Positions 25,335 to 36,039 of a stretch of DNA of 64,000 nucleotides are shown piece by piece. Below the pieces are notes generated by a model. That model did not search any database and was not told the DNA's origin. It saw nothing but the letters and a program-made list of their open reading frames with translations. How positions within the stretch are numbered: the stretch's first letter is position 1; the number at the start of each line of letters is the position of its first letter. The DNA is from Mesorhizobium australicum (lineage in GTDB: Bacteria > Pseudomonadota > Alphaproteobacteria > Rhizobiales > Rhizobiaceae), in NCBI RefSeq assembly GCF_900177325.1, contig NZ_FXBL01000004.1, positions 5,151,501-5,215,500 of the forward strand. Reading direction: 5' to 3'. The position numbers and the translations under genes were made by a program.

Positions 25335-26315
25335 TTAGTTCGGCACGACGCGCATCTCGTCGCGCTTGGCGGCATAATTGGCCTCGTCGTAGGCCGGCGC
25401 CGCGTCCAGCTGCTCCTTGGTGAAGGTCGTGTAGAGGTAATGGTCGCCATCCTCGTCGGCCATGAAGGTCAGATTGTCCATACCGACGGCCACTTCCTTC
25501 TCGCCCATGCCGAGGAAACCGCCGACATCGATGATCACAGCGTCAACCTTTTCGCCCTGCAGGACGACGTCGCCGATCTCGCCGATGTTCTCGTCATTGG
25601 CGCCATAGACGGTGGTGCCCACCAAATCCTCGGAGCGAATCTCGGCCGTATTCACCTCCTTCAGCGTCGAACGGTCGATCGCGGCCGTCTCAGTCTTGTC
25701 GGTCGCGGCCGGAGCCTGGGCGTCGGGAGCCTTGGTCATGGCGTCCTGTCCGGCGGGCTTCGTTGCGTCGTTCTGGCTCATGTCGGTCGACGGCGCAGTG
25801 GTCGCCGGCGGAGTCGTCGCCTGAGGAGCTGCCGCGTCGTTGGAAGCGACGGCAGCCGGCGCATAGGCGCTGCGATCGAAGTCAGGCAGTTCCTTCAGCT
25901 GGTCGGCCGTGGCCTCGATCACGATCCAGCGGTCGCCGTCGCGTTCGGCCCAGTCGATCGTCTTGTAGTCGATCGCAACGTCCTTCTCACCGATGCCGAG
26001 GAAGCCGCCGACGCCGATCACGATGGCTTCGATCATGCCGTCCTTCGAGATCACGAGGTCGTTCACGTTGCCGACAGTCTGAGCATCATCGGCGGTGCTG
26101 TTATAGACGGTCTCGCCAATGATGTTGGAGGCGATCTGCCCGTCGGCCGAGACCTCGGACTGGTCGACGGCAACGCCAGGCGCGAGCGGCGCGGCCGGTG
26201 CAGCCTCGCTGGCGGCCGGCGGTGTCGCAGGCGCAGGCTGGGTGCTCGACTGGGCAAAGGCGCCGGTCGAAACGATCGTCAGAATGGCGGTAGTCGCCAA
26301 GAGCTTGCGGATCAT
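25335..26315 (-). CDS. Secreted protein with two PRC-barrel domains
   Basis: A 326-residue exported protein. After a signal peptide (residues ~1-21, ending GAFAQ) and a Pro/Ala linker, two PRC-barrel units repeat: GETVYNSTADDAQTVGNVNDLVI with GGFLGIGEKDVAI near 80-130, and GTTVYGANDENIGEIGDVVL with GGFLGMGEKEVAV near 235-290. An acidic Ala/Pro/Thr-rich linker joins them. The start at 26315 follows GGAGAG. A perfect EcfG-type promoter is 93 bases upstream, so the gene is probably induced by the general stress response. The molecular function of such periplasmic PRC-barrel proteins is not known. Confidence 0.87.
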   Translation of the reverse strand: MIRKLLATTAILTIVSTGAFAQSSTQPAPATPPAASEAAPAAPLAPGVAVDQSEVSADGQIASNIIGETVYNSTADDAQTVGNVNDLVISKDGMIEAIVIGVGGFLGIGEKDVAIDYKTIDWAERDGDRWIVIEATADQLKELPDFDRSAYAPAAVASNDAAAPQATTPPATTAPSTDMSQNDATKPAGQDAMTKAPDAQAPAATDKTETAAIDRSTLKEVNTAEIRSEDLVGTTVYGANDENIGEIGDVVLQGEKVDAVIIDVGGFLGMGEKEVAVGMDNLTFMADEDGDHYLYTTFTKEQLDAAPAYDEANYAAKRDEMRVVPN

Positions 26316-26407
26316 GATATTCTCTCCTTCGTGCAGGGTTTTTCTTTGCACGGCCGCGCCGTTACCGATCGTCGCTGTGAGGGCCGGCGCGGCCTCTACA
26401 GTCCGCT

Positions 26408-26432
26408 AACGCAGGCTCGCCGATACGGTTCC
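26408..26432 (-). promoter_or_regulatory. EcfG-type promoter for the PRC-barrel gene
   Basis: On the minus strand GGAAC (26432-26428), 16 bases, CGTT (26411-26408): a perfect match to the alphaproteobacterial EcfG consensus, 93 bases upstream of the start at 26315. Confidence 0.8.
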
Positions 26433-26491
26433 CCTGATCGAGCGGCGGAATCCGCGATCGTCTTTGGCATTGATTTTGCTGGAAAAAGTGC

Positions 26492-26516
26492 GGAACCTTT
26501 TGACTGTCTGCGCGTT
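26492..26516 (+). promoter_or_regulatory. EcfG-type promoter for the diacylglycerol kinase-like gene
   Basis: GGAAC (26492-26496), 16 bases, CGTT (26513-26516): a perfect EcfG-type match 54 bases upstream of the ATG at 26571 and divergent from the site at 26408-26432. Confidence 0.8.
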
Positions 26517-26570
26517 TATCGGCGCCTTGCTGCGAACCAGTTCTCTCTCAACCCGTCCGGAGCTTAGACC

Positions 26571-27470
26571 ATGCGGTTCATCGCCGTGCTGAACAGGGGC
26601 GGAGGAACGCTGCGCACGATGGACCTCGACGCGTTCGAGTCTCGGATGCGCGATCGTCTGGGTGAGGCCGGACATACGGTGGAGGTCCGGACCGTGGAGG
26701 GCCGCGACCTTATGGACGCGCTGCGCGAGGCAGTGGCAGCCCCCGAAGCGGATGTGGTGCTGGCGGGCGGAGGAGACGGCACGATCTCGGCGGCCGCGTC
26801 CGTGGTCATGGACACCGGCAAGGCGCTCGCAGTTCTGCCGGCGGGAACGATGAACCTGTTCGCCCGCTCGCTCGGCATGCCGCTCGACCTCGACTCCGCG
26901 CTCGCGGCCTTCGCCACCGGCGAGATCCGCGAGGTCGACGTGGCGACCGCCAATGGCAGACCGTTCGTGCACCAGTATTCGGTCGGCCTGCACGCCAAGC
27001 TGGTGAAAATCCGCGATCAGATGAAGTTCTCTTCGCGCCTCGGCAAGATGCGCGCCTCCGTCAGGGCAGCCTTCGCGACGCTGATCCGGCCGCCATCGAT
27101 GGTGGTTTCGATCGACATCGATGGCGCGGAGATCATTGTCCGCGCCTCCGGCATCGGCGTGACCAACAACCTTTTCGGCGAAGGGCACCTGCCCTATGCG
27201 GACCATCCCGACGGGGGAACCCTCGGCGTCTATGTAACGACGGCGCGCAGGCTACCGCAGCTTTTGTCGGCGCTTGCCCACATGCTCGTCGGCCGCTGGA
27301 ACCGCAACGCGCATGTGGAAATCCATACCGGCAAGGAAGTGGTTCTGAAGTTCAACCGCCTGCACAGGCGCCATCGCTGCGTGATCGACGGCGAGCTGTC
27401 CCCGATCGAGCACGAGACCGCGATCCGCATCCATCCGAAATCGCTGCGGGTCCTCGTGCCCCACGCCTGA
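26571..27470 (+). CDS. Diacylglycerol/lipid kinase family protein
   Basis: A 299-residue DAGK_cat-fold protein. The nucleotide-binding GGGDGT is at residues 66-71, followed by LAVLPAGTMNLFARSLGMP, another family hallmark; the C-terminal half is the beta-rich lipid/sphingosine kinase-like domain. Members phosphorylate lipid alcohols at the membrane; the substrate here cannot be told. It sits behind a perfect EcfG-type promoter, suggesting stress-induced lipid remodelling (inference). Its stop is one base from the stop of the convergent small membrane protein gene. Confidence 0.87.
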   Translation: MRFIAVLNRGGGTLRTMDLDAFESRMRDRLGEAGHTVEVRTVEGRDLMDALREAVAAPEADVVLAGGGDGTISAAASVVMDTGKALAVLPAGTMNLFARSLGMPLDLDSALAAFATGEIREVDVATANGRPFVHQYSVGLHAKLVKIRDQMKFSSRLGKMRASVRAAFATLIRPPSMVVSIDIDGAEIIVRASGIGVTNNLFGEGHLPYADHPDGGTLGVYVTTARRLPQLLSALAHMLVGRWNRNAHVEIHTGKEVVLKFNRLHRRHRCVIDGELSPIEHETAIRIHPKSLRVLVPHA

Positions 27471-27471
27471 A

Positions 27472-27669
27472 TCAGCCGCCCGCCGGTGCGGGAGGTGCGC
27501 CGGTCGTCGGTTGGGTCGCGTTGGTCTGCGGGGTCTGGATCGACGTTCCGTAGATCTCGACGACGAACCAGACCGCGCAGGCCAATGCCAGCGAGACCAG
27601 CAGGATGACGAGAACCGGATAGCCTTGCTTGCCCTGACGAGCGTCGCGGGCCGAGAACAATCTACGCAT
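27472..27669 (-). CDS. Small single-span membrane protein, probably stress-regulated
   Basis: A 65-residue protein: a basic N-terminus (RRLFSARDARQGKQG), one hydrophobic helix (about residues 17-38, YPVLVILLVSLALACAVWFV) and a Pro/Thr/Ala-rich tail likely outside the cytoplasm. The ATG at 27669 has GGAG 6 bases upstream; a GTG one codon earlier is an alternative. A near-consensus EcfG promoter (GGAAC, 17 bases, CATT) precedes it. I do not recognise a family. Confidence 0.72.
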   Translation of the reverse strand: MRRLFSARDARQGKQGYPVLVILLVSLALACAVWFVVEIYGTSIQTPQTNATQPTTGAPPAPAGG

Positions 27670-27697
27670 CACATGCTCCTACAATGGTCGCATGCCA

Positions 27698-27723
27698 AAT
27701 GCGCGCCGCCGGGATTAGGTTCC
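27698..27723 (-). promoter_or_regulatory. EcfG-like promoter for the small membrane protein
   Basis: On the minus strand GGAAC (27723-27719), 17 bases, CATT (27701-27698). The -10 differs from CGTT at one base, the same variant as in the nepR-ecfG promoter. It lies 29 bases upstream of the start at 27669. Confidence 0.6.
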
Positions 27724-27756
27724 GGATTCGGCAGGTAGTCGAGCAATCAGAGAGAC

Positions 27757-28203
27757 TTAGGCGTCGGGATCCTCGTCCCGGTCGCTGTTCTCCTTGTAGA
27801 TTGCATAGGCGGCCATGGCGGCCACCGGCGTCAGGAGAGACAGGAGCCCGCCACGTCCCTTCAGAAGCGCAGGAAGAATGGCAAACGCCGTGGCTCCCGC
27901 AAGCGCCTGGAGTTGAGCAGCCCGCGCTTCTTCAGCACGGCGCTTTGCCTGAATGCCGGAAACGATGCGGTGCACGATCAGCGCCACGCCGGCCAGCGCA
28001 ATGAATCCAAGGCCGAACCCGACCGCCGTGTAGAGCGGACCATACCGCTCGGCGACGAAGATGTAGGCGGCCGCGATCAGGAAGCCGAGGCCAATCGCGA
28101 GACAGATCCCCGCGATCATGTAGTCGATCATGGCGCGCCTGACACGCTTCGCCGCTCGCGATGTCTCTCCGGAAACGATAGATTGGATCAGTGCCGCGAG
28201 CAT
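27757..28203 (-). CDS. Holin-X/DUF1469-like small membrane protein
   Basis: A 148-residue protein with two strong hydrophobic segments (about 27-50 and 58-82: GICLAIGLGFLIAAAYIFV and TAVGFGLGFIALAGVALIV) flanked by charged helices, and a third weaker segment near the C-terminus. This pattern resembles the phage-holin/Actinobacterial Holin-X (DUF1469) family, which in non-phage settings is encoded beside DUF883 proteins, as here. The start at 28203 lies 25 bases after the DUF883 stop, so both are probably read from the same EcfG-type promoter. No phage genes are near. Confidence 0.75.
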   Translation of the reverse strand: MLAALIQSIVSGETSRAAKRVRRAMIDYMIAGICLAIGLGFLIAAAYIFVAERYGPLYTAVGFGLGFIALAGVALIVHRIVSGIQAKRRAEEARAAQLQALAGATAFAILPALLKGRGGLLSLLTPVAAMAAYAIYKENSDRDEDPDA

Positions 28204-28228
28204 GGACGTTCCGGGATAGGCCAAGGCG

Positions 28229-28576
28229 TCAGCGGCGTGTGAGCAATGCGAAGAGGAAGCCGACGCCGGCGGCAATAGCGAGCGACGTGACCGGCTTCTC
28301 GCGCACCCGGGCGACAATCTCGCCCTCGATGTCGCTGGCCTCGCTCTTCAGACCCTGCACCGCGGCCTCCCCCTTGGCCCGCATCTGGGTGGCGCCTTCC
28401 TGCGCGATGGATTTCAGCGCTTCGAGCGATTTCTCGCCCGAACTCTGCACCTGCGCCGTCAGCTTGGCGATCTCCGCCTTCAGGGTCTCGATCTGAGCCT
28501 CCATCTCCGAGATGGACGGATCCGTGGCCCTGGAACCGTTGGCGGGCTTTTCGGTTTTAGCTGTGGAAGATGGCAT
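28229..28576 (-). CDS. DUF883 (ElaB/YqjD-like) membrane-anchored protein
   Basis: A 115-residue protein. Residues 20-90 are a long amphipathic helix (SISEMEAQIETLKAEIAKLTAQVQ region) and the C-terminus is a hydrophobic anchor (TSLAIAAGVGFLFALLTRR), the layout of ElaB/YqjD/YgaM. In E. coli these are stationary-phase proteins that tether ribosomes to the inner membrane. The start at 28576 follows AGGAG. A perfect EcfG-type promoter lies 30 bases upstream, consistent with stress or stationary-phase control. Confidence 0.83.
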   Translation of the reverse strand: MPSSTAKTEKPANGSRATDPSISEMEAQIETLKAEIAKLTAQVQSSGEKSLEALKSIAQEGATQMRAKGEAAVQGLKSEASDIEGEIVARVREKPVTSLAIAAGVGFLFALLTRR

Positions 28577-28605
28577 GGCGGGCTCCTTTGCGTTTGCGTG
28601 TTCCA

Positions 28606-28630
28606 AACGCGGGACCGGCGGCGAAGTTCC
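28606..28630 (-). promoter_or_regulatory. EcfG-type promoter for the DUF883/holin-like operon
   Basis: On the minus strand GGAAC (28630-28626), 16 bases, CGTT (28609-28606): perfect consensus, 30 bases upstream of the start at 28576. Confidence 0.8.
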
Positions 28631-28683
28631 TCGGACCTGCCAGCATCAAAATGCCTTTCACGGCGCGAGTCCAGCCGGATTTC

Positions 28684-29439
28684 TCACATCAGCGGGCGGC
28701 GCTGGTCGCCAAGCCCCTCCCATCGTGCAATCCCGCAGAGCGTTTCCTCGTCGAGCACCTCGCAGCCGCGGTCGAGCCAGCGGATCGCCTTGCGGTCGAT
28801 CAGCTTCCTGAGTGTCTTGTTGGTGTGGACGATAGAGAGCCCGAGCGTGTCGGCCACATGCTGCTGCGTAATGGGGATTTCCGCCTTTCCCTTGCCATAA
28901 AGCTGCACGGATCGCGCCCGCTGGTGGAGAAAGGCGATGAGATACGCCGCGCGCTCCAGCGCGCTGCGACGTCCGACGCTGAGCAGGTTCTCGTCGAGCA
29001 TCTGCTCCTCGCGCGCGGCGAGCCAGGTGAGGTCGTAGGCGAGGCCGGGATGGTTGCGGTAGAGCGAGAAAAGCTGTTCGCGCTCGAAGACGCACAGCAT
29101 CATCGGCGACAGCGCCTCGACCGAATGCTGCATTTCGCCGGTGAGGCTGCCCTGCAGGCCGATCAGGTCGCCCGGCACGACATAGTTGAGGATCTGGCGT
29201 CGGCCGTCCGGCAGCAGCTTGTAGCGGAATCCCCAGCCGGACAGGGCGGTGTAGAGATGCGCGCTGTGATTGCCCTCGACGAGCACGGTCGCGCCGCGAT
29301 CGATGGTGAGCTCGCCGGTCTTGAACCGGCTGATGAAGCCGAGTTCGGCAGAAGTGAAGTCCCTGAAGACCCCCAGCGGCCGCAACGGGCATTTCTCGCA
29401 CGGATACTTCTTGGCCGAACTGGCCGGCGCTGGCGTCAT
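28684..29439 (-). CDS. Crp/Fnr family transcriptional regulator
   Basis: A 251-residue regulator. Near the N-terminus there is a CEKCPLRPL segment, a pair of cysteines reminiscent of Fnr-like proteins but too few for a classical four-cysteine 4Fe-4S site. A cyclic-nucleotide-binding-like beta barrel spans ~30-150, and the C-terminal winged helix contains ITQQHVADTLGLSIVHTNKTLRKL, a typical Crp recognition helix. Ligand and targets are unknown. The ATG at 29439 has AGGAAG ~10 bases upstream; an earlier ATG at 29478 lacks a ribosome site. It is divergent from the orphan response regulator. Confidence 0.87.
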   Translation of the reverse strand: MTPAPASSAKKYPCEKCPLRPLGVFRDFTSAELGFISRFKTGELTIDRGATVLVEGNHSAHLYTALSGWGFRYKLLPDGRRQILNYVVPGDLIGLQGSLTGEMQHSVEALSPMMLCVFEREQLFSLYRNHPGLAYDLTWLAAREEQMLDENLLSVGRRSALERAAYLIAFLHQRARSVQLYGKGKAEIPITQQHVADTLGLSIVHTNKTLRKLIDRKAIRWLDRGCEVLDEETLCGIARWEGLGDQRRPLM

Positions 29440-29549
29440 GGACCCGTCTTCCTTCCGCTGCCCCCGGCGCTCCGGCATGTCAAAGTTAAATGACGGGAGG
29501 GGAATTTATCTGCGATCGGTACAGCAATGCGAATTCGGAGAAAGCCATT

Positions 29550-29942
29550 TTGACCAAGCTGCCGCTCGACGGCCTTAGGGTTCTCGTCCTCGAGGACGAG
29601 TTTCTCATCGCGATGGAGGTCGAGCAGGCCTGTCGCGACAGCGGCGCGGCGGAAGTTCGGATCTGCCGAACGCTCGAGGAAGTCGGTACGACACTGTCGG
29701 GAGCGCTCGATTTCGACGTGGCCGTGATCGACCTGAGGCTGGGCCTCATATCGTCTGTCGACTTCGCGCGCACCTTGTTCGAAGCGGGCGTGCCATTCAT
29801 CTTCGCAACCGGCTATGCCGACTCGCAGGAGATGTCGGAGAACTTCCCCGGCGTGCGGGTCGTCACCAAGCCTTATCTGGGTAATGAAGTGGTCGACGCT
29901 CTGGCGGATACCCTGCAACGTGTCCCTCAACGGCTCGACTGA
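29550..29942 (+). CDS. Orphan single-domain response regulator (FAT GUY type)
   Basis: A ~130-residue receiver domain with no output domain. VLVLEDEFLIA holds the acidic pocket, VAVIDLRLG the phosphoacceptor aspartate, and IFATGYAD followed by VTKPY is the FAT GUY signature of receivers that serve in alphaproteobacterial general stress phosphorelays. I prefer a TTG start at 29550 (CGGAG upstream, conserved domain begins at once). An ATG at 29490 in frame has no ribosome site and would add 20 unrelated residues. With nepR-ecfG immediately downstream on the other strand, it may modulate the PhyR phosphorelay. Confidence 0.82.
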   Translation: MTKLPLDGLRVLVLEDEFLIAMEVEQACRDSGAAEVRICRTLEEVGTTLSGALDFDVAVIDLRLGLISSVDFARTLFEAGVPFIFATGYADSQEMSENFPGVRVVTKPYLGNEVVDALADTLQRVPQRLD

Positions 29943-29959
29943 GACTGGACGCCGGCGGG

Positions 29960-30505
29960 TCACACCGCCGTGCTGAGGATCTGAACCGTGATCGAATCCG
30001 GGCCGAACTCGCCTTCGCCGGAAATGCCGAGCTGCTCCTGCAGGCGGGCGCGGGCGCGGCTCACCCGGCTCTTGATCGTGCCCACGGCACAGCCGCAGAT
30101 CTCCGCCGCCTCCTCGTAGGAAAAGCCGGATGCGCCGATCAGGATGATCGCCTCTCGCTGATCCTCCGGCAGCATTTCGAGCGCGCCGCGGAAGTCTTCC
30201 AGGTCGAGCGCGCCCTGCTGGCTCGGATGCACCGCCAGGCGGCCGGTCATGATCCCGTCTGAATCCTGCACCTCGCGACCGCGCTTGCGCATCTGCGAAT
30301 AGAACTCGTTGCGCAGGATGGTGAACAGCCACGCTTTGAGGTTCGTCCCCGGCTGGAAGCTCTCGTGCTTGTCCCAGGCCTTCACGAGGGTTTCCTGCAC
30401 GAGGTCGTCCGCGCGGTCCGTATTGTGCGTCAGCGACACCGCGAACGCACGCAGGTTGGGAATCGACGCAAGCAGTCCGGACTTGAAGTCGGCTGATACC
30501 GCCAT
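29960..30505 (-). CDS. ecfG: EcfG, general stress response ECF sigma factor
   Basis: A 181-residue ECF15-type sigma factor. Region 2 includes AVSLTHNTDRADDLVQETLVKAW, with the -10-reading helix. Region 4 includes ILIGASGFSYEEAAEICGC and VGTIKSRVSRARARL, the -35-reading helix-turn-helix. It directs RNA polymerase to GGAAC/CGTT promoters, of which ten candidates occur around it. It is co-transcribed with nepR (4-base gap). The frame extends 52 codons upstream inside nepR but that part is a shadow. Activity is held in check by NepR. Confidence 0.93.
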   Translation of the reverse strand: MAVSADFKSGLLASIPNLRAFAVSLTHNTDRADDLVQETLVKAWDKHESFQPGTNLKAWLFTILRNEFYSQMRKRGREVQDSDGIMTGRLAVHPSQQGALDLEDFRGALEMLPEDQREAIILIGASGFSYEEAAEICGCAVGTIKSRVSRARARLQEQLGISGEGEFGPDSITVQILSTAV

Positions 30506-30509
30506 CGGC

Positions 30510-30704
30510 TCACTCCGACTTTCCGGCAGTTTCTGCCTTGTCGAGCTGCTGGAGCAATTGCGCGAAACGGTCGGGAACCTCTTCGGACACGAGACCGTCA
30601 TAGTACTGGCGCAGCTTGCGTCCGATTTCGGAGTTGGTGCCGAGGAGGTCCGCGCTTCCAAGCAGGCCCGCCTGCCGCTCGGAGGTGTTTTTCTTGTTGG
30701 TCAT
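30510..30704 (-). CDS. nepR: NepR, anti-sigma factor of EcfG
   Basis: A 64-residue anti-sigma factor. The conserved core GRKLRQYYDGLVSEEVPDRF followed by LLQQLD is the NepR family signature of two helices that clamp EcfG. Under stress, phosphorylated PhyR binds NepR and frees EcfG. The ATG at 30704 (MTNKKNTSER) is preceded by AAGGA immediately and AGGGCGAG further up; translation from further upstream would run through the promoter. It heads the nepR-ecfG unit and is divergent from phyR. Confidence 0.92.
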   Translation of the reverse strand: MTNKKNTSERQAGLLGSADLLGTNSEIGRKLRQYYDGLVSEEVPDRFAQLLQQLDKAETAGKSE

Positions 30705-30801
30705 TCCTTGAACTCGCCCTTTGTCTTTACCGGCAGCGCCCACCGTCCCTGATGGCGTACATGCCGGCATTGCGGCCCGCCGACAGCAATGTCCGGGCTG
30801 A

Positions 30802-30826
30802 AATGCGCCGCCGCGAAAAAAGTTCC
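30802..30826 (-). promoter_or_regulatory. EcfG-like promoter for nepR-ecfG
   Basis: On the minus strand GGAAC (30826-30822), 16 bases, CATT (30805-30802), about 98 bases upstream of nepR. It gives positive autoregulation of the sigma factor together with its anti-sigma factor. The -10 has one deviation from CGTT. Confidence 0.7.
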
Positions 30827-30834
30827 CTCCGCCC

Positions 30835-30859
30835 GGAACTTTTTTTGTCGACGCCCGTT
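30835..30859 (+). promoter_or_regulatory. EcfG-type promoter for phyR
   Basis: GGAAC (30835-30839), 16 bases, CGTT (30856-30859): perfect consensus, 63 bases upstream of phyR. Its -35 is only 8 bases from the -35 of the divergent nepR promoter, so two EcfG holoenzymes would be back to back. Confidence 0.82.
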
Positions 30860-30921
30860 GAACCGACACATGCGCCCCTATTCTCTGCGGCGCAGTTCGT
30901 CATTGAGGGAGACGTCATCAC

Positions 30922-31716
30922 ATGAGCCTGTCTGCAAGCATCGCCCCGCATCTGCCGTTCCTGCGCCGCTTCGCGCGCGCGGTTTCCGGCTCTCAGTCGA
31001 GCGGTGACGCCCATGTCGCCGCCGCGCTGGAGGCGATCATTGCCGATGTAAGCATTTTCCCGAAAGCCTCCAGCGACCGGGTCGCGCTCTACAAGGTGTT
31101 TGCCAAGCTGTTTTCCTCCGTCGCGTCGAACATGCCGGCGGAGCAGCCGGTCCAGGCCTGGGAACGGCGCGCCGCGGCCAATCTCGGCTCGCTCTCGCCG
31201 CTGCCACGCCAGGCCTTCGTGCTGGTTGCGGTTGAAGGCTTCAGCGACGAGCAGGCGGCCGAGATCCTCGACGTGAGCGAGGAGGATTTCACCGACCTGA
31301 TCGCGGAGGCGTCGCGCGAGATCTCGAAGCAGGTCGCGACCGATATCCTCATCATCGAGGACGAGCCACTGATCGCGATGGACATCGAGGAGATGGTGGA
31401 AAGCCTCGGCCACCGCGTCGTCGGCACGGCACGCACCCATAAGGAGGCGGTCGGCCTCTTCCAGAAGACGCAGCCCAAGATGGTGCTCGCCGACATCCAG
31501 CTCGCCGACGGCAGCTCGGGCATCGATGCCGTCAACGAGATTCTGTCGTCGACCGCGGTGCCGGTGATCTTCATCACCGCCTTCCCGGAGCGCCTGCTCA
31601 CCGGCGAGCGTCCGGAACCGGCCTTCCTCGTCACCAAGCCGTTCAATCCGGAGATGGTCAAGGCCCTGATCAGCCAGGCTTTGTTCTTCGACCGGCAGGC
31701 AAAAGCAGCCGCCTGA
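30922..31716 (+). CDS. phyR: PhyR, response regulator and anti-anti-sigma factor
   Basis: A 264-residue master regulator of the alphaproteobacterial general stress response. Residues ~1-130 mimic an ECF sigma factor (LSPLPRQAFVLVAVEGFSDEQ) but lack DNA-binding quality. Residues ~140-255 are a receiver with IIEDEPLIAMD, the phosphoacceptor Asp191 in LADIQLADG, and the FAT GUY-type segment FITAFPERLL followed by VTKPF. When phosphorylated it opens and binds NepR. It lies divergent to nepR-ecfG with its own perfect EcfG-type promoter, the classical arrangement. Confidence 0.95.
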   Translation: MSLSASIAPHLPFLRRFARAVSGSQSSGDAHVAAALEAIIADVSIFPKASSDRVALYKVFAKLFSSVASNMPAEQPVQAWERRAAANLGSLSPLPRQAFVLVAVEGFSDEQAAEILDVSEEDFTDLIAEASREISKQVATDILIIEDEPLIAMDIEEMVESLGHRVVGTARTHKEAVGLFQKTQPKMVLADIQLADGSSGIDAVNEILSSTAVPVIFITAFPERLLTGERPEPAFLVTKPFNPEMVKALISQALFFDRQAKAAA

Positions 31717-31717
31717 C

Positions 31718-31742
31718 GGAACAAAAGGCGCCGCGGCGCGTT
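31718..31742 (+). promoter_or_regulatory. EcfG-type promoter for the DUF1328 gene
   Basis: GGAAC (31718-31722), 16 bases, CGTT (31739-31742): perfect consensus starting 2 bases after the phyR stop, 97 bases upstream of the small membrane protein start at 31839. Confidence 0.8.
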
Positions 31743-31838
31743 GTTTTATAATGGCAGGACCGTTCGGCCACAATTTTGCCAGAACACGGGAGATGCGCTC
31801 CTGCGGAGCCATCGGCCCGCAGATTTCAGGAGAGTAGA

Positions 31839-32006
31839 ATGCTGTACTGGACCGTCGTTTTCCTCGTCGTCGCCATCATCGCCGGTGCGTTGGGCTTTGG
31901 GGGGATCGCGGGGGCATCTGCCGGTATCGCGCAGATTCTGTTCTTTGTCTTCCTTGCATTCCTTGCGATCTCGCTCATCGCCGGCCTGGTGCGCCGGGCG
32001 AGCTAG
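31839..32006 (+). CDS. DUF1328 (UPF0391) small membrane protein
   Basis: A 55-residue protein that is almost entirely two hydrophobic helices: [20 protein letters not shown] and a second from about residue 28 to 48 with a glycine/alanine turn between, ending in VRRAS. This matches the DUF1328/UPF0391 family, small inner-membrane proteins of unknown function often induced under stress. GGAGAG stands before the ATG. A perfect EcfG-type promoter is upstream and an intrinsic terminator downstream, so it is an isolated stress-regulated transcription unit. Confidence 0.85.
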
Positions 32007-32077
32007 GGCGGGGCGACCGCAAGGCTACCCGTTCCGGGGAGCCAACAAATCCCCCTCAGCGGCTTCCCGGAGCCGAA

Positions 32078-32118
32078 GCCGGACCGCGGTCTTTCGGGAT
32101 CGCGGTCCGGCGGCTTTT
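32078..32118 (+). terminator. Terminator after the DUF1328 gene
   Basis: GCCGGACCGCG / CGCGGTCCGGC form an 11-base stem with a 12-base loop, then GGCTTTTG. It lies 72 bases after the stop and just upstream of the EcfG-like promoter of the HWE kinase. Confidence 0.7.
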
Positions 32119-32159
32119 GCGTCGTCCTGTCGAACCGGCCTGCCCCGCGTCAGAGCGAG

Positions 32160-32184
32160 GGAACTTTGCGCACCGTCAGCAGTT
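32160..32184 (+). promoter_or_regulatory. EcfG-like promoter for the HWE kinase
   Basis: GGAAC (32160-32164), 16 bases, AGTT (32181-32184). The -10 deviates from CGTT at one base. It lies 33 bases upstream of the kinase ATG at 32217. Confidence 0.5.
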
Positions 32185-32216
32185 TGTCCCGAAGGTAACC
32201 AGCAGGGCGGCAGCAA

Positions 32217-33227
32217 ATGACTGAAGCGGGGAAGAGCGAGCGTATGTCGCCGACTTCGCGCGCCCATGCCGATCAGGCCGACCAGGCCAGCCTCGTCCGT
32301 GCACTTGCCAACGCAAATGTCGCGATCCTCGCGCAGGACACTTCGCTTGCCTATCTTTGGAGTGAAAATGCGCCCGCCAAGTGGGGACTTGGGAAGATTG
32401 TCGGGCGCAGGGACGCCGACATCTTCTCCGACGCGGTTGCCGAGGAGCTGACCGGCCTCAAGAAGGAAGTGCTCGCGGGAACCGAGCGGCGCCATACCGA
32501 GATCGCGGTTTCGGGTCCGGAAGGCCTGAGCTGGTTCGAGATATGGCTGGACCCGCTGAGGAACAACGAGGGCTCCGTCGTTGGCGTGGTGACGACCGCC
32601 ACGGAGATCACCGAGCAGCGGCAGCGCGAGCAGACGCTGCGCACCCTGCTTCGGGAGGTGAGCCATCGCTCGAAGAACCTGCTCGCCATCATTCAGAGCA
32701 TTGCGGCCCAGACCGGCCGCTACACCGATACGGTCGAGCAGTTCCTGACCCGGTTCCGCGGGCGGCTTCAGTCGCTCTCTTCCTCGCAGGACCTCGTGAC
32801 CTCGTCCAACTGGCGCGGGGCCGACCTGTCGCAGCTCGTGGCCGGCCAGGTCGCGCGCTACTGCGCCGAGCCGTCGCGCAATCTGGTCGTCAGCGGCGAG
32901 AACCCGTATCTCAACCCGAACGCAGCGCTTCACGTCGGGCTGGCCCTGCACGAGCTCGCCGTCAACTCGGTGAGCTATGGCGCGCTGTCCTCGCCCGACG
33001 GCCAGGTCAAGATCGAGGTCCGCCTCCTGCCGGACGGAGAGATGGAGCTTCTCTGGAGCGAGCCGCTCATCCGGCCCGACGCCGGCCCGGAGCGAAAGCG
33101 CTTCGGCACCGTGGCGCTGGAACGGGTGGTGCCGTCCTCGCTCAACAGCACCGCCAGCCTGTCGACGGGCGCGGGCCGGCTCGTCTATCGGCTGGTCCTG
33201 CCCGCCGACAGTTTTCACCTCGACTAG
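32217..33227 (+). CDS. PAS-HWE family sensor histidine kinase, candidate PhyR kinase
   Basis: A 336-residue soluble kinase with no membrane segments. Residues ~25-135 form a PAS domain (ANANVAILAQDTSLAYLWSE opening, closing at TATEITEQR). The HWE/HisKA_2 dimerisation box follows with His150 in REVSHRSKNLLAIIQS, and the ATPase N-box is ALHELAVNSVSYGALS. Such kinases are the usual activators of PhyR in rhizobia and Caulobacter relatives; location next to phyR and an EcfG-like promoter support this (inference). The final ~60 residues are short compared with full ATPase domains but retain FGTVALERVVPS. Confidence 0.88.
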   Translation: MTEAGKSERMSPTSRAHADQADQASLVRALANANVAILAQDTSLAYLWSENAPAKWGLGKIVGRRDADIFSDAVAEELTGLKKEVLAGTERRHTEIAVSGPEGLSWFEIWLDPLRNNEGSVVGVVTTATEITEQRQREQTLRTLLREVSHRSKNLLAIIQSIAAQTGRYTDTVEQFLTRFRGRLQSLSSSQDLVTSSNWRGADLSQLVAGQVARYCAEPSRNLVVSGENPYLNPNAALHVGLALHELAVNSVSYGALSSPDGQVKIEVRLLPDGEMELLWSEPLIRPDAGPERKRFGTVALERVVPSSLNSTASLSTGAGRLVYRLVLPADSFHLD

Positions 33228-33294
33228 AAAGAATGTGAGCCGGCATCTTAATCGGGCTTCAACCAGAATGTGCGACGGTTCGCTGCGGGAATTG

Positions 33295-33319
33295 GGAACC
33301 GGCTGGGGAGGAGGCCGTT
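33295..33319 (+). promoter_or_regulatory. EcfG-type promoter for a small membrane protein
   Basis: GGAAC (33295-33299), 16 bases, CGTT (33316-33319): perfect consensus, 35 bases upstream of the GTG at 33354. Confidence 0.78.
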
Positions 33320-33353
33320 TACGCTGGCGAATTCGGTTGGAGAGGAGCAGGGC

Positions 33354-33521
33354 GTGAACACGAGGATCCATCTGGAGGATGCCGCGCGGCTCGCGATGGG
33401 CAGCTTTGCCATCGAGGAACGTCCGCCGGCCTCCGTCGCGCCCTATGCGGTTCGCCGTATCGCCATCATCGCGGCCGCCGCAGCGGTCGCCGCCATCCTC
33501 GCCCTTGCCTACCTGGCATAA
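33354..33521 (+). CDS. Small tail-anchored membrane protein, stress promoter upstream
   Basis: A 55-residue protein starting at GTG behind GGAGAGGAGC. Residues 1-33 are hydrophilic (NTRIHLEDAARLAMGSFA) and residues ~35-54 form one hydrophobic helix (RIAIIAAAAAVAAILALAYLA), a C-tail anchor. I do not recognise a family. The perfect EcfG-type promoter 35 bases upstream is the main argument that the gene is real. Confidence 0.65.
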   Translation: MNTRIHLEDAARLAMGSFAIEERPPASVAPYAVRRIAIIAAAAAVAAILALAYLA

Positions 33522-33586
33522 CCGCTGCTTGTCCGGGGAAGGCAAACGATCCTTCCGGCCGGACTATTCGCAATTCCGCCAGAAAT

Positions 33587-33612
33587 GGAACCAAATAAAA
33601 CGGAAGAACGTT
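33587..33612 (+). promoter_or_regulatory. EcfG-type promoter for the gene at 33635
   Basis: GGAAC (33587-33591), 17 bases, CGTT (33609-33612): consensus elements with the longer permitted spacer, 23 bases upstream of the ATG at 33635. Confidence 0.75.
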
Positions 33613-33634
33613 CCAGGGCCGAAAGGATTCGGCC

Positions 33635-33946
33635 ATGGAACACATTGCTGCGCTGTTGCTGATCGTCGGATGTTCGCAGGATATGAAGCAGTGCGAGGAA
33701 CTGCCGTCGCCGGTCACCGTCTACGAGACGTCGGTGGAATGCGATACGGAGCTGCCGGCGATCCTCGGGCGGCTCGATCATTTGCGGCCGCGGGTGATGG
33801 GAACCTGCGTATTCGTCGATCCGGCCCTCGAGGAGCAGGACGCCGAACTGGTTTGGGATGTGACGCCCGACGGCGCCTTGCGCGCTTCGATCGAAGCCGT
33901 CTCGATGAACGTGGCATCGGTGAAGGGGAAAACCCTTCACGAATGA
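33635..33946 (+). CDS. Hypothetical protein with conserved-looking cysteines, stress promoter upstream
   Basis: A 103-residue protein, MEHIAALLLIVGCSQDMKQC at the start, with four cysteines (Cys13, Cys20, Cys36 and one in MGTCVFVD). The short hydrophobic start could be a signal or a lipoprotein-like LIVGC box, though it has only one charged residue before it. No family is recognised. The start lies 23 bases after the -10 of an EcfG-type promoter, which leaves little leader sequence; a GAAAGG site is present. Confidence 0.68.
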   Translation: MEHIAALLLIVGCSQDMKQCEELPSPVTVYETSVECDTELPAILGRLDHLRPRVMGTCVFVDPALEEQDAELVWDVTPDGALRASIEAVSMNVASVKGKTLHE

Positions 33947-34098: not shown

Positions 34099-34362
34099 AT
34101 GAAGAAGATCATCATCGCCCTGGTGGCGGCAGGGGCGATCGCCGGCTGCACCACGGCTGAGCAAGATGCGGCAGGTGGCGCCGTGGTGGGCGCGGCCGTC
34201 GGCGGCATCGCCACGGGTCGTGTAGAAGGGGCGCTTGTGGGCGCCGTGGTCGGTGGCGCGACAGGTGTTCTGCTGGGTCAGGCCACGCGTCGCGGTGAGT
34301 GCCGCTACCGCGACCGTCGCGGCCGCATCTACATCGCCGCCTGCCCGGCCGGCTACTACTGA
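34099..34362 (+). CDS. Glycine-zipper lipoprotein
   Basis: An 87-residue lipoprotein. The signal MKKIIIALVAAGAIAGC ends in a good lipobox with Cys17. The mature protein has a glycine-zipper region (GGAVVGAAVGGIATG, then GALVGAVVGGATGVLLG), which often inserts in or packs along membranes as in osmotically inducible and 17-kDa-antigen-type proteins, then a short C-terminal part with CRYRDRRGRIYIAACPAGYY. A strong AAGGAGAG site precedes the ATG. No EcfG-type promoter is seen upstream. A terminator follows. Confidence 0.82.
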   Translation: MKKIIIALVAAGAIAGCTTAEQDAAGGAVVGAAVGGIATGRVEGALVGAVVGGATGVLLGQATRRGECRYRDRRGRIYIAACPAGYY

Positions 34363-34422: not shown

Positions 34423-36039
34423 TCAGCGTTTGAGCGGAATGAAGATCTCGATATCGATCCCGTCCTCGGGATAGCGTCGCTCGACCGAGCCGCCGAGTTC
34501 GCGCACGATGTTGGCGTCGATCAGCCGCGTGCCGAAGCCCTTGCGTTCGGGCGGCTCCACCTTGCCGCCGCCGCGCTCGCGCCAGAACAGGCGCAATCCG
34601 CCCCTTGTCAGGCTCCACGTCACCGCGACTGTGCCCTTGCCCGTGCCGGCCGCGCCGTATTTAAGCGCATTGGTCGCCAGCTCGTGGAAGGTCAGGCCGA
34701 GCGCCTGCGTGGTCGCCTCGTCGATCTCGACCTGCGGGCCGGTCAGCCGGTCGGCATCCATGCCGTTGCCCAGCACTTGCTCCACCTCGGTGAGCAGCAG
34801 TTCGCGCAGGTCCGCCTTCTGCCAGCGCGAGCGGGTCAGCATGTCCTGCGAGGCCGACATCGCCTGCAGCCGCGCGCTGAACGAGGCGGAGAAATCCTCG
34901 ACCGTCTTCGCGCCCGACGCCGTCTGGCGGGCGATCGCCAGCACGCGGGCGAGCGAGTTCTTGATCCGGTGCTTCATCTCCTGCAGCAGAAGATCCTTCT
35001 CCTGCAACGCCTTCTCGCCCGCCTCGTTGAGCGCGCGCACCGCCTCGTAGGCCTTTTCGCCGGAGCGCACGACATAGGCGAGCGCGGTCGCCAGGGCCAG
35101 GCCGAAGAGGCCGAGCGCGATGGCTGCCATGCGCGAGGCCGGCCAGGCGAAGTTCGAGGTCGGCTCGAAGCGGAGCAGCCAGGTGCGGCCGGCCACCTGC
35201 ACCTGCCGGCTGGTCCCGAACCTGCCCATCGACCGGTCGGGCGGCGTCTGCGAGCGGAAGATCAGCGTCTCGGGCTTCGGCTCGCCGTCATAGACCTCGA
35301 TCGCCAGCGGCAGGAGCGGCGCTCTCGACAGGGCCGCGCCGAAGAGGTCGGCCGCCCGGAACGGCGCATAGACGAAGCCGGCCGTCGCCGCCATGCGCTG
35401 GGCGACGGGGGCATCGTCGGAGGCGCCGAGCACCAGCGGCAGATAGATCAGGAATCCCGGCTGCGACATGGAGCCGGCGTCCCGCACCAGCGGCACCAGG
35501 CCGGTGGCGCGCGGCTCCCCCATCTCCATCGCGCGCATCATCGCGGCGCGGCGGGTCGGCTCGCTCATCATGTCGTAGCCCAACGCGCCCCGATTGCTTT
35601 CGTCGAGCGGTTCGAGAAGGGTGATCGGCGTGCGCTGCGAGCCGCCCTCGGGCGGCCATACCCTGATCTCGCCGCCGTAGTTGCGCGCCAGATCGTCCTC
35701 CGCCGCCTTCTCGCCGCCCTTGCGCAGCAGCCGCGCATAGCCGAGGCCGCGGATGCCGGCATAGCGATCCTTGATGTCGAGAGCGGCGACGAAGGAACGC
35801 AGCGCGTCGCGGCTCACCATGCCGTTGCCGGTCTTGAACAGCGCAAGCGTCGCCCGCAGCATGGAAAGATGCAGCTCCAGCCGCGTCTCGATGCGGTTGA
35901 CGGCGTCGTCGGCCGTGCTCTCGAACTTGATGCGCGCCGCATCGGTCGCCGCGACATAGGCGTAGCCTGCCATGGCGAGGCTTGCAGTCGCGACCGACAC
36001 GAACACGACCACGGGGAATAACCGTTTCACGCGCTCCAC
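34423..36039 (-). CDS. CHASE domain HWE family sensor histidine kinase
   Basis: A 538-residue membrane kinase. The first membrane segment is at residues ~8-30, a periplasmic CHASE-type sensor domain (~40-265, including YAGIRGLGYARLL and LGYDMMSEPTRR) follows, and a second membrane segment is at ~302-324. The cytosolic part has the HWE/HisKA_2 box with His357 in LQEMKHRIKNSLARV and the N-box TFHELATNALKYGAAG. CHASE domains sense small extracellular molecules. It could be a further input to the PhyR pathway, since HWE kinases typically are (inference), but there is no EcfG-type promoter upstream. Confidence 0.88.
   Translation of the reverse strand: MERVKRLFPVVVFVSVATASLAMAGYAYVAATDAARIKFESTADDAVNRIETRLELHLSMLRATLALFKTGNGMVSRDALRSFVAALDIKDRYAGIRGLGYARLLRKGGEKAAEDDLARNYGGEIRVWPPEGGSQRTPITLLEPLDESNRGALGYDMMSEPTRRAAMMRAMEMGEPRATGLVPLVRDAGSMSQPGFLIYLPLVLGASDDAPVAQRMAATAGFVYAPFRAADLFGAALSRAPLLPLAIEVYDGEPKPETLIFRSQTPPDRSMGRFGTSRQVQVAGRTWLLRFEPTSNFAWPASRMAAIALGLFGLALATALAYVVRSGEKAYEAVRALNEAGEKALQEKDLLLQEMKHRIKNSLARVLAIARQTASGAKTVEDFSASFSARLQAMSASQDMLTRSRWQKADLRELLLTEVEQVLGNGMDADRLTGPQVEIDEATTQALGLTFHELATNALKYGAAGTGKGTVAVTWSLTRGGLRLFWRERGGGKVEPPERKGFGTRLIDANIVRELGGSVERRYPEDGIDIEIFIPLKR

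Follow-up and report, generated by a model that had tools for sequence, protein, structure and literature searches.

The 64-kb window analysed here, a stretch of contig NZ_FXBL01000004.1 of Mesorhizobium australicum, was found to contain ten promoter-like sites for the general stress response (GSR) sigma factor EcfG between positions 26408 and 33612. This 7.2-kb region, referred to below as the island, also encodes EcfG, its anti-sigma factor NepR, the anti-anti-sigma response regulator PhyR and a histidine kinase of the HWE family. With high confidence, it is read as the chromosomal GSR locus of an alphaproteobacterium of Mesorhizobium type, enlarged to a regulon island: a canonical NepR-EcfG-PhyR locus with a kinase, ringed by independently promoted target genes that are mostly small or of envelope type. 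The original prediction, that the region is a physically clustered regulon around its own sigma factor, was supported by a scan of the genome, by the identities of the core genes and by the conservation of the promoters in 80 relatives.

A perfect EcfG-type site was defined as GGAAC and CGTT separated by 16 or 17 bases (N16, N17), with the same pattern read backwards (the reversed pattern) serving as control. Direct scanning of the window identified seven perfect sites, every one of them inside the island; dinucleotide shuffles gave 0.67 perfect sites per 64-kb window, and none of 100 shuffles reached seven. The ten site coordinates listed in the original prediction were all found to be right, as was their division into seven perfect sites and three one-base variants (Table 1). 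Each site lies on the strand of its gene, 22-97 bases ahead of the start codon (20-100 had been given), start codons being taken from open frames and the sequence. The predicted chance expectation of about 0.1 perfect site per 7.2 kb also agrees with the 0.11 predicted from the rest of the genome.

Scanning of the whole genome (5.86 Mb, four contigs), which had been proposed together with the original prediction, identified 96 perfect sites against 85 for the reversed pattern, so that perfect sites as a class are near chance genome-wide. Comparable density was found nowhere else. Perfect sites are about 64 times more frequent per kb in the island than in the remaining genome (Poisson P 3.4e-11; 2.8e-8 once corrected for the number of windows), and among the other 7.2-kb stretches listed the densest has three perfect sites, the others having pairs and singles. 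To call genes around the 89 outside sites, a codon model was trained on 16 genes lying in the island or flanking it. This model recovers the island genes with some starts differing, and the island starts rest also on open frames and family matches. A gene caller trained on the longest open frames was discarded because, in this GC-rich genome, it had picked up antisense shadow frames and put genes in the wrong places. Promoter-positioned perfect sites amounted to seven of seven in the island and 40 of 89 elsewhere, where 41 lie inside genes and eight are otherwise intergenic.

Of the genome's 47 promoter-positioned perfect sites, the island, with 0.12% of the total length, thus accounts for seven (15%); it is a dense part of the regulon, not the whole of it. 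When the proteins behind all 40 promoter-positioned outside sites were scanned, they were found to include CsbD (2), DUF892 (2), DUF982 (2), DUF1328, DUF3008 and HU, along with an ATP-dependent DNA ligase, a sigma-70 region 2 protein and DUF421. Two of these families, CsbD and DUF892, are typical of stress regulons, and because outside sites precede families such as these the regulon very probably extends past the island to scattered genes. The next-densest group of sites in the genome (C4:3083112-3083817; about 5113-5818 of L111) consists of three perfect sites spread over about 0.7 kb of the minus strand. Close by lie a BA14K-like protein and an unrecognised protein of 162 aa, and a transposase-like open frame (by inspection) is about 2 kb off.

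Conservation of the sites in related loci and in other families

Relatives were taken as the best 80 of 245 candidate phyR loci in named genomes (80-91% protein identity). All 80 possess between 5 and 12 perfect sites (mean 8.9, against 0.34 for the reversed pattern), and of the 713 perfect sites, when binned by 1 kb, 709 fall in the ten bins that span -7 to +3 kb relative to phyR and four outside. The spacing was also found to be specific, with 623 sites for N16 and 90 for N17, whereas the remaining spacings between 12 and 22 gave 1 to 65 each.

Considered gene by gene, a perfect site precedes phyR in 80/80 relatives, the DUF1328 gene in 79/79, the DUF883-like gene in 76/77, the lipid-kinase gene in 66/69 and the 103-aa gene in 66/67 (this gene being found in 67 of the 80). 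For nepR it is present in 74/80, with a variant in the remaining six. The HWE kinase gene has a perfect site in 59/79 relatives, a variant in five and none in 15, while the 65-aa gene, found in 51/80, has a perfect site in 41, a variant in nine and none in one. The gene for a Crp/Fnr-type regulator, siteless in the window, has a perfect site in 47/63, and the 55-aa gene occurs in just five of the 80 (four perfect sites, one variant). For the PRC-barrel gene a perfect site was identified within 900 bp upstream in all 73 relatives holding the gene; an earlier per-gene count of 15/73 (14 perfect, one variant) was taken to be an artefact of longer N-termini. That count left 107 perfect sites unassigned, many of them where the PRC-barrel and 65-aa genes lie, and the three that were translated all belonged to these two genes.

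Neighbouring genes served as internal negatives. The CHASE-HWE kinase gene is siteless in 75/79 relatives (one variant, and three starts beyond the locus), an ABC gene in 68/74 (six variants) and a sulfatase gene in 63/66 (three variants). The membrane protein gene situated 3' of the DUF883-like gene has no site of its own in 73/76 relatives and a variant in three. At the glycine-zipper gene just beyond the island, which has no perfect site, a one-base variant was observed upstream in 23/74 relatives.

Nine one-base variants occur in 7.4 kb of the island and 21 in the remaining 56.6 kb of the window, and six of the nine are, by position, not ahead of a gene start on their strand. Taken alone, one-base variants are therefore weak evidence, but the three of the original prediction are supported by conservation, because close relatives keep variant sites at these places while the spacer diverges. 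In the window's closest relatives (L031, L032 and L033) both the nepR site and the 65-aa site carry CATT, and the HWE kinase site carries AGTT in L031 and L032 and GGTT in L033. Retention of the variants despite diverged spacers argues for their being functional. Feedback on nepR-ecfG may be weaker in the window's subclade, given CATT in place of the CGTT of 74/80 relatives. This subclade also lacks the Crp promoter present in 47/63 relatives and possesses the 55-aa gene with its promoter; members of the island therefore come and go.

For comparison beyond the Mesorhizobium group, NepR was searched for in 120 genomes of the order (67 over the cut-off) and 114 of the class (15 over the cut-off), both counts including the genome of the window. 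Sixty nepR loci were taken, from 46 of the 66 other genomes of the order set (mostly one per genus) and all 14 of the class set; three belong to the window's family, 43 to other families of the order and 14 to other orders. Perfect sites in these loci number 266, whereas the reversed pattern occurs 18 times. In the first kb towards phyR the density of sites is 1.28 per kb; by 8-10 kb it has dropped to 0.02-0.09 per kb, with 0.016 per kb over the 60 whole genomes (4435 perfect sites against 4957 reversed in 274.5 Mb). With the codon model of the island, applied to other families without a check against annotation, 205/266 perfect sites and 2/18 controls were promoter-positioned.

At least one perfect site is present in 57/60 loci, and 53/60 have some away from nepR and phyR, with 31 having three or more; three loci have none and seven have none away from nepR and phyR. 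The loci without a perfect site in the stretch taken (L129, L130 and L166, of genomes G031, G032 and G168) may use a different dialect of the EcfG motif or have lost the clustering. A match to an island gene at E 0.001 was obtained for 112 of the 202 proteins encoded behind the sites and not for the other 90, although short proteins may conceal some homology. The matches include nepR or phyR (57), DUF1328 (16), PRC-barrel (8), DUF883-like (8) and Crp (6); six of the 90 others cluster with island genes, 13 form a group that is CsbD-like by inspection, and 46 of the 66 protein clusters are singletons. The gathering of sites around nepR, an old arrangement, thus persists over families while its membership partly changes, since sites are enriched near nepR even though 90 of the 202 proteins match no island gene; it is weaker there and not seen in every locus. 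ecfG lies within 3 kb of nepR in 58/60 loci, and the other two were not significantly different (p 0.33).

Gene content and proposed regulatory switch

The core identities given in the original prediction (nepR-ecfG, phyR and a HWE kinase) were borne out by Pfam. EcfG possesses sigma-70 regions 2 and 4 together with a PhyR_sigma2 match above the cut-off, is encoded beside nepR and can accordingly be classed, from these sequence features, as a predicted ECF15 sigma factor. It is 79-93% identical in 79/80 relatives, while its nearest paralog in the genome is only 36% identical. NepR is the single match in the genome at E 0.001, and its gene probably forms an operon with ecfG. PhyR combines sigma-like domains with a receiver and is encoded divergently from nepR-ecfG; both sides of this divergence carry GSR-type promoters.

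Among the target genes, the three small proteins that had been called unrecognised (65, 55 and 103 aa) indeed matched no family in Pfam or NCBIfam. An operon described as DUF883/holin-like was only partly recovered, the DUF883 match being sub-threshold and the holin-like character of the second product not being confirmed. The single-domain response regulator matched the PhyR receiver model NF006623 weakly (38.8 against 240 bits). On the strand opposite the perfect site of the 103-aa gene, and overlapping it, is a one-mismatch site (33587-33614). The motif is nearly symmetric (AAC ... GTT), and in other genomes, too, perfect sites on the two strands overlap (G131, L140, L156). An RNA-family scan gave a single match, a distant tRNA.

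Table 1. Promoter sites and genes of the island and its edges (positions are those of the window)
Feature	Position	Strand	Remarks
EcfG-type promoter, PRC-barrel gene	26408..26432	-	perfect; 89 bases before ATG
EcfG-type promoter, lipid-kinase gene	26492..26516	+	perfect; divergent from PRC-barrel gene's promoter
Promoter, 65-aa protein gene	27698..27723	-	one-base variant CATT, N17
EcfG-type promoter, DUF883-like unit	28606..28630	-	perfect
Promoter, nepR-ecfG	30802..30826	-	one-base variant CATT
EcfG-type promoter, phyR	30835..30859	+	perfect; divergent from nepR promoter
EcfG-type promoter, DUF1328 gene	31718..31742	+	perfect
Promoter, HWE kinase gene	32160..32184	+	one-base variant AGTT
EcfG-type promoter, 55-aa protein gene	33295..33319	+	perfect
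EcfG-type promoter, 103-aa protein gene	33587..33612	+	perfect, N17
Two-PRC-barrel protein	25335..26318	-	PF05239, two stretches, 87.1 bits; signal peptide apparent by inspection
YegS/diacylglycerol-kinase-like lipid kinase	26571..27470	+	PF00781 79.8 bits, PF19279 38.8 bits
65-aa small protein	27472..27669	-	one membrane helix by inspection; no Pfam/NCBIfam match
Membrane protein (by inspection)	27757..28203	-	3' of DUF883-like gene; start uncertain; no Pfam/NCBIfam match at E 0.01
DUF883-like protein	28229..28576	-	first gene of probable two-gene unit; DUF883_C 23.9 bits, under 27-bit cut-off
Crp/Fnr-type regulator	28684..29442	-	PF00027, PF13545; without EcfG site
Single-domain response regulator	29490..29942	+	PF00072 28.2 bits, under 30.2 cut-off; without EcfG site
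ecfG, GSR sigma factor	29960..30508	-	PF08281, PF04542, PF22029
nepR, anti-sigma factor	30510..30704	-	PF18557 62.2 bits, cut-off 25.7; upstream of and adjoining ecfG
phyR, anti-anti-sigma response regulator	30922..31716	+	PF22029, PF22233, PF00072, all over cut-off
DUF1328 small membrane protein	31839..32006	+	PF07043 54.3 bits
PAS-HWE histidine kinase	32217..33227	+	PF07536 87.5 bits, PF08448; HRxxN motif (HRSKN)
55-aa small protein	33354..33521	+	GTG start; one membrane helix by inspection; no Pfam/NCBIfam match
103-aa protein, unrecognised	33635..33946	+	no Pfam/NCBIfam match
Glycine-zipper lipoprotein-like gene	34099..34362		just beyond island
CHASE-HWE histidine kinase (HWE2)	34423..36039	-	PF03924 157.8 bits, PF07536 77.4 bits; HRxxN motif (HRIKN); just outside island, without EcfG site

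The partner switch and the recognition of the sites by EcfG are predicted from what is known of the family. A stress signal would be passed by the HWE-family kinases to PhyR, which in its phosphorylated form would take NepR off EcfG, allowing EcfG-RNA polymerase to start transcription from some ten distinct promoters in the 7-kb region. Feedback would come from three of these promoters, two acting on nepR-ecfG and phyR and one on a kinase, with the remainder serving the PRC-barrel protein, the lipid kinase, the DUF883-like unit, the DUF1328 protein and the three small proteins. Signalling genes and a first set of effectors would in this way be induced together, with scattered genes elsewhere being served by the same sigma factor.

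Comparison with described systems

Linkage of the core genes and autoregulation of the GSR locus are established (passages of PMC8103513, PMC4814048 and PMC7083833). In Methylobacterium extorquens, ecfG is reported to lie away from nepR (PMC4814048, in part). The window shares with the canonical locus the divergent arrangement of nepR-ecfG and phyR, EcfG-type promoters on both and a nearby kinase with HRxxN, a signature given for GSR kinases (all in passages of PMC8103513). It differs from this locus in adding about seven independently promoted units within 7 kb, forming an effector-regulon patch. The positioning of the sites also has a parallel in Sphingomonas melonis, where the best EcfG motifs gather within 100 bases of the start codon (passage of PMC6599016).

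At the ecfG1-phyR-tcrY locus of Rhizobium etli, an EcfG1-dependent non-coding RNA (ReC64) is transcribed from an EcfG motif situated just downstream of phyR-tcrY (PMC3892343, in the part consulted). One short RNA is described there, whereas the corresponding stretch 3' of the kinase in the window carries two small protein genes with EcfG-type promoters.

The RpoE2 system of Sinorhizobium meliloti has the motif and the types of target in common with the island, a PRC-barrel protein and the hypothetical genes SMc01508-SMc01509 being RpoE2-dependent (passages of PMC6180224). Judging from their locus numbers, the latter presumably lie close to rpoE2. Additional EcfG-driven transcripts at the locus are on record one at a time, as with these genes and ReC64. 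RpoE2 promoters are also given for rsiA1 and rsiB1, and SMc01507, close by number, has an RpoH-like promoter (both in passages of PMC3616915). The listed RpoE2 targets, in contrast to those of the island, bear locus names of all three replicons (PMC6180224, in part), and the passages of PMC6180224 and PMC3616915 describe no dense island around rpoE2.

A search of the open-access literature yielded no tally of EcfG promoters by distance from ecfG, although subscription reviews may mention clustering, and among open-access articles naming Mesorhizobium, EcfG and the general stress response, none concerned this locus as judged by titles and the beginnings of abstracts. The island is an extension of a known stress-response locus, unusually dense and well conserved, and not a new kind of system.

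Explanations for the clustering

Several points weigh against reading the region as an EcfG regulon island. The dependence of the island genes on EcfG is predicted from sequence, and three of the ten promoters are one-base variants, the autoregulatory promoter of nepR-ecfG included. The training set of the codon model includes island genes, so that the count of seven promoter-positioned sites out of seven is not independent. The 80 related loci are mostly of one genus and are not independent of one another either. Description of the effectors as mostly of the envelope draws on inspection of small hydrophobic sequences and on weak family matches. As regards the wider regulon, ten of the 40 outside-site proteins matched no Pfam family at E 0.001, and some others (ArgJ, YacG) look housekeeping, so that their sites may be chance.

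If the island is accepted, the reason for the gathering of its promoters has to be considered. It is quite possible, although somewhat short of an even chance, that the cluster reflects inherited synteny only, having come together a single time in an ancestor of the Mesorhizobium group and never been broken up, with nearness to ecfG being without function. This would fit the recurrence of the promoters and of most genes in the 80 related loci, the reappearance of the DUF1328, PRC-barrel, DUF883-like and Crp families near nepR in other families, and the little or no clustering in some loci of other families (three of 60 siteless, seven of 60 with sites at nepR or phyR at most). However, the enrichment persists in the 60 loci, 57 of them from other families, where many of the genes behind the sites differ, and loss of the Crp promoter with gain of the 55-aa gene in the window's subclade suggests turnover inside a retained cluster. 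A tentative explanation, itself doubtful, is that selection across the alphaproteobacteria holds EcfG promoters near ecfG while the genes carrying them vary by family; proximity to the source of a scarce sigma factor, or co-inheritance with it, would then speed or tighten the first wave of the response.

Reading of some of the promoters by another extracytoplasmic function (ECF) sigma factor with a similar motif, such that the island would not be a pure EcfG regulon, is considered unlikely. A candidate is the ECF paralog with 36% identity to EcfG at C4:2417402-2417863 (L112), and overlap of this kind is described for S. meliloti, where expression of 27 RpoE2-regulon genes is increased by the ECF26 factor RpoE6 (passage of PMC6180224). 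In the island, however, GGAAC is complete in ten of ten sites and CGTT in seven of ten, the sites surround ecfG and not the paralog, and a single NepR was found in the genome. The paralog is followed by an open frame resembling a membrane anti-sigma factor (by inspection), and may be a possible second reader.

Recruitment of genes beside ecfG through local duplication of an existing EcfG promoter is slightly less probable again. Sites frequently lie near one another, and close pairs (within 150 bp) are divergent in 36/41 cases in the 60 loci and 149/152 in the 80 loci, as such duplication could produce, but close pairs are necessarily divergent if each gene has one promoter, and about 20 of the 36 are the nepR-phyR pair itself. 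Sequence comparison of the sites lends such duplication no support: mean identity of N16 spacers and flanks is 0.289 within a locus and 0.274 between loci, and pairs above 50% identity number 1/365 against 0.38 expected, although old duplications could have lost their similarity. When sites were shuffled in two ways among the heads of transcription units in the 57 loci of other families, doubly sited divergent pairs were modestly in excess (11 against 5.8 and 6.9, p 0.015 and 0.013); in the three loci of the window's family the excess was not significant. An effect of chance or composition, to which the near-chance count of the perfect motif in this genome and its slight deficit relative to the reversed pattern in the 60 others might point, is refuted by density, positioning, spacing specificity and conservation and can be set aside with near certainty.

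The alphaproteobacterial stress response has a well-studied core switch, yet many of its target genes have no known role. Those likely to matter most are marked by the island, where about ten units, each with a promoter of its own, are conserved beside the sigma factor. The island also represents a clean case for the question of why regulons cluster around their regulators, whether by proximity, co-inheritance or drift. The gradient of sites over about 10 kb in many families, carried by partly different genes, makes this question measurable.

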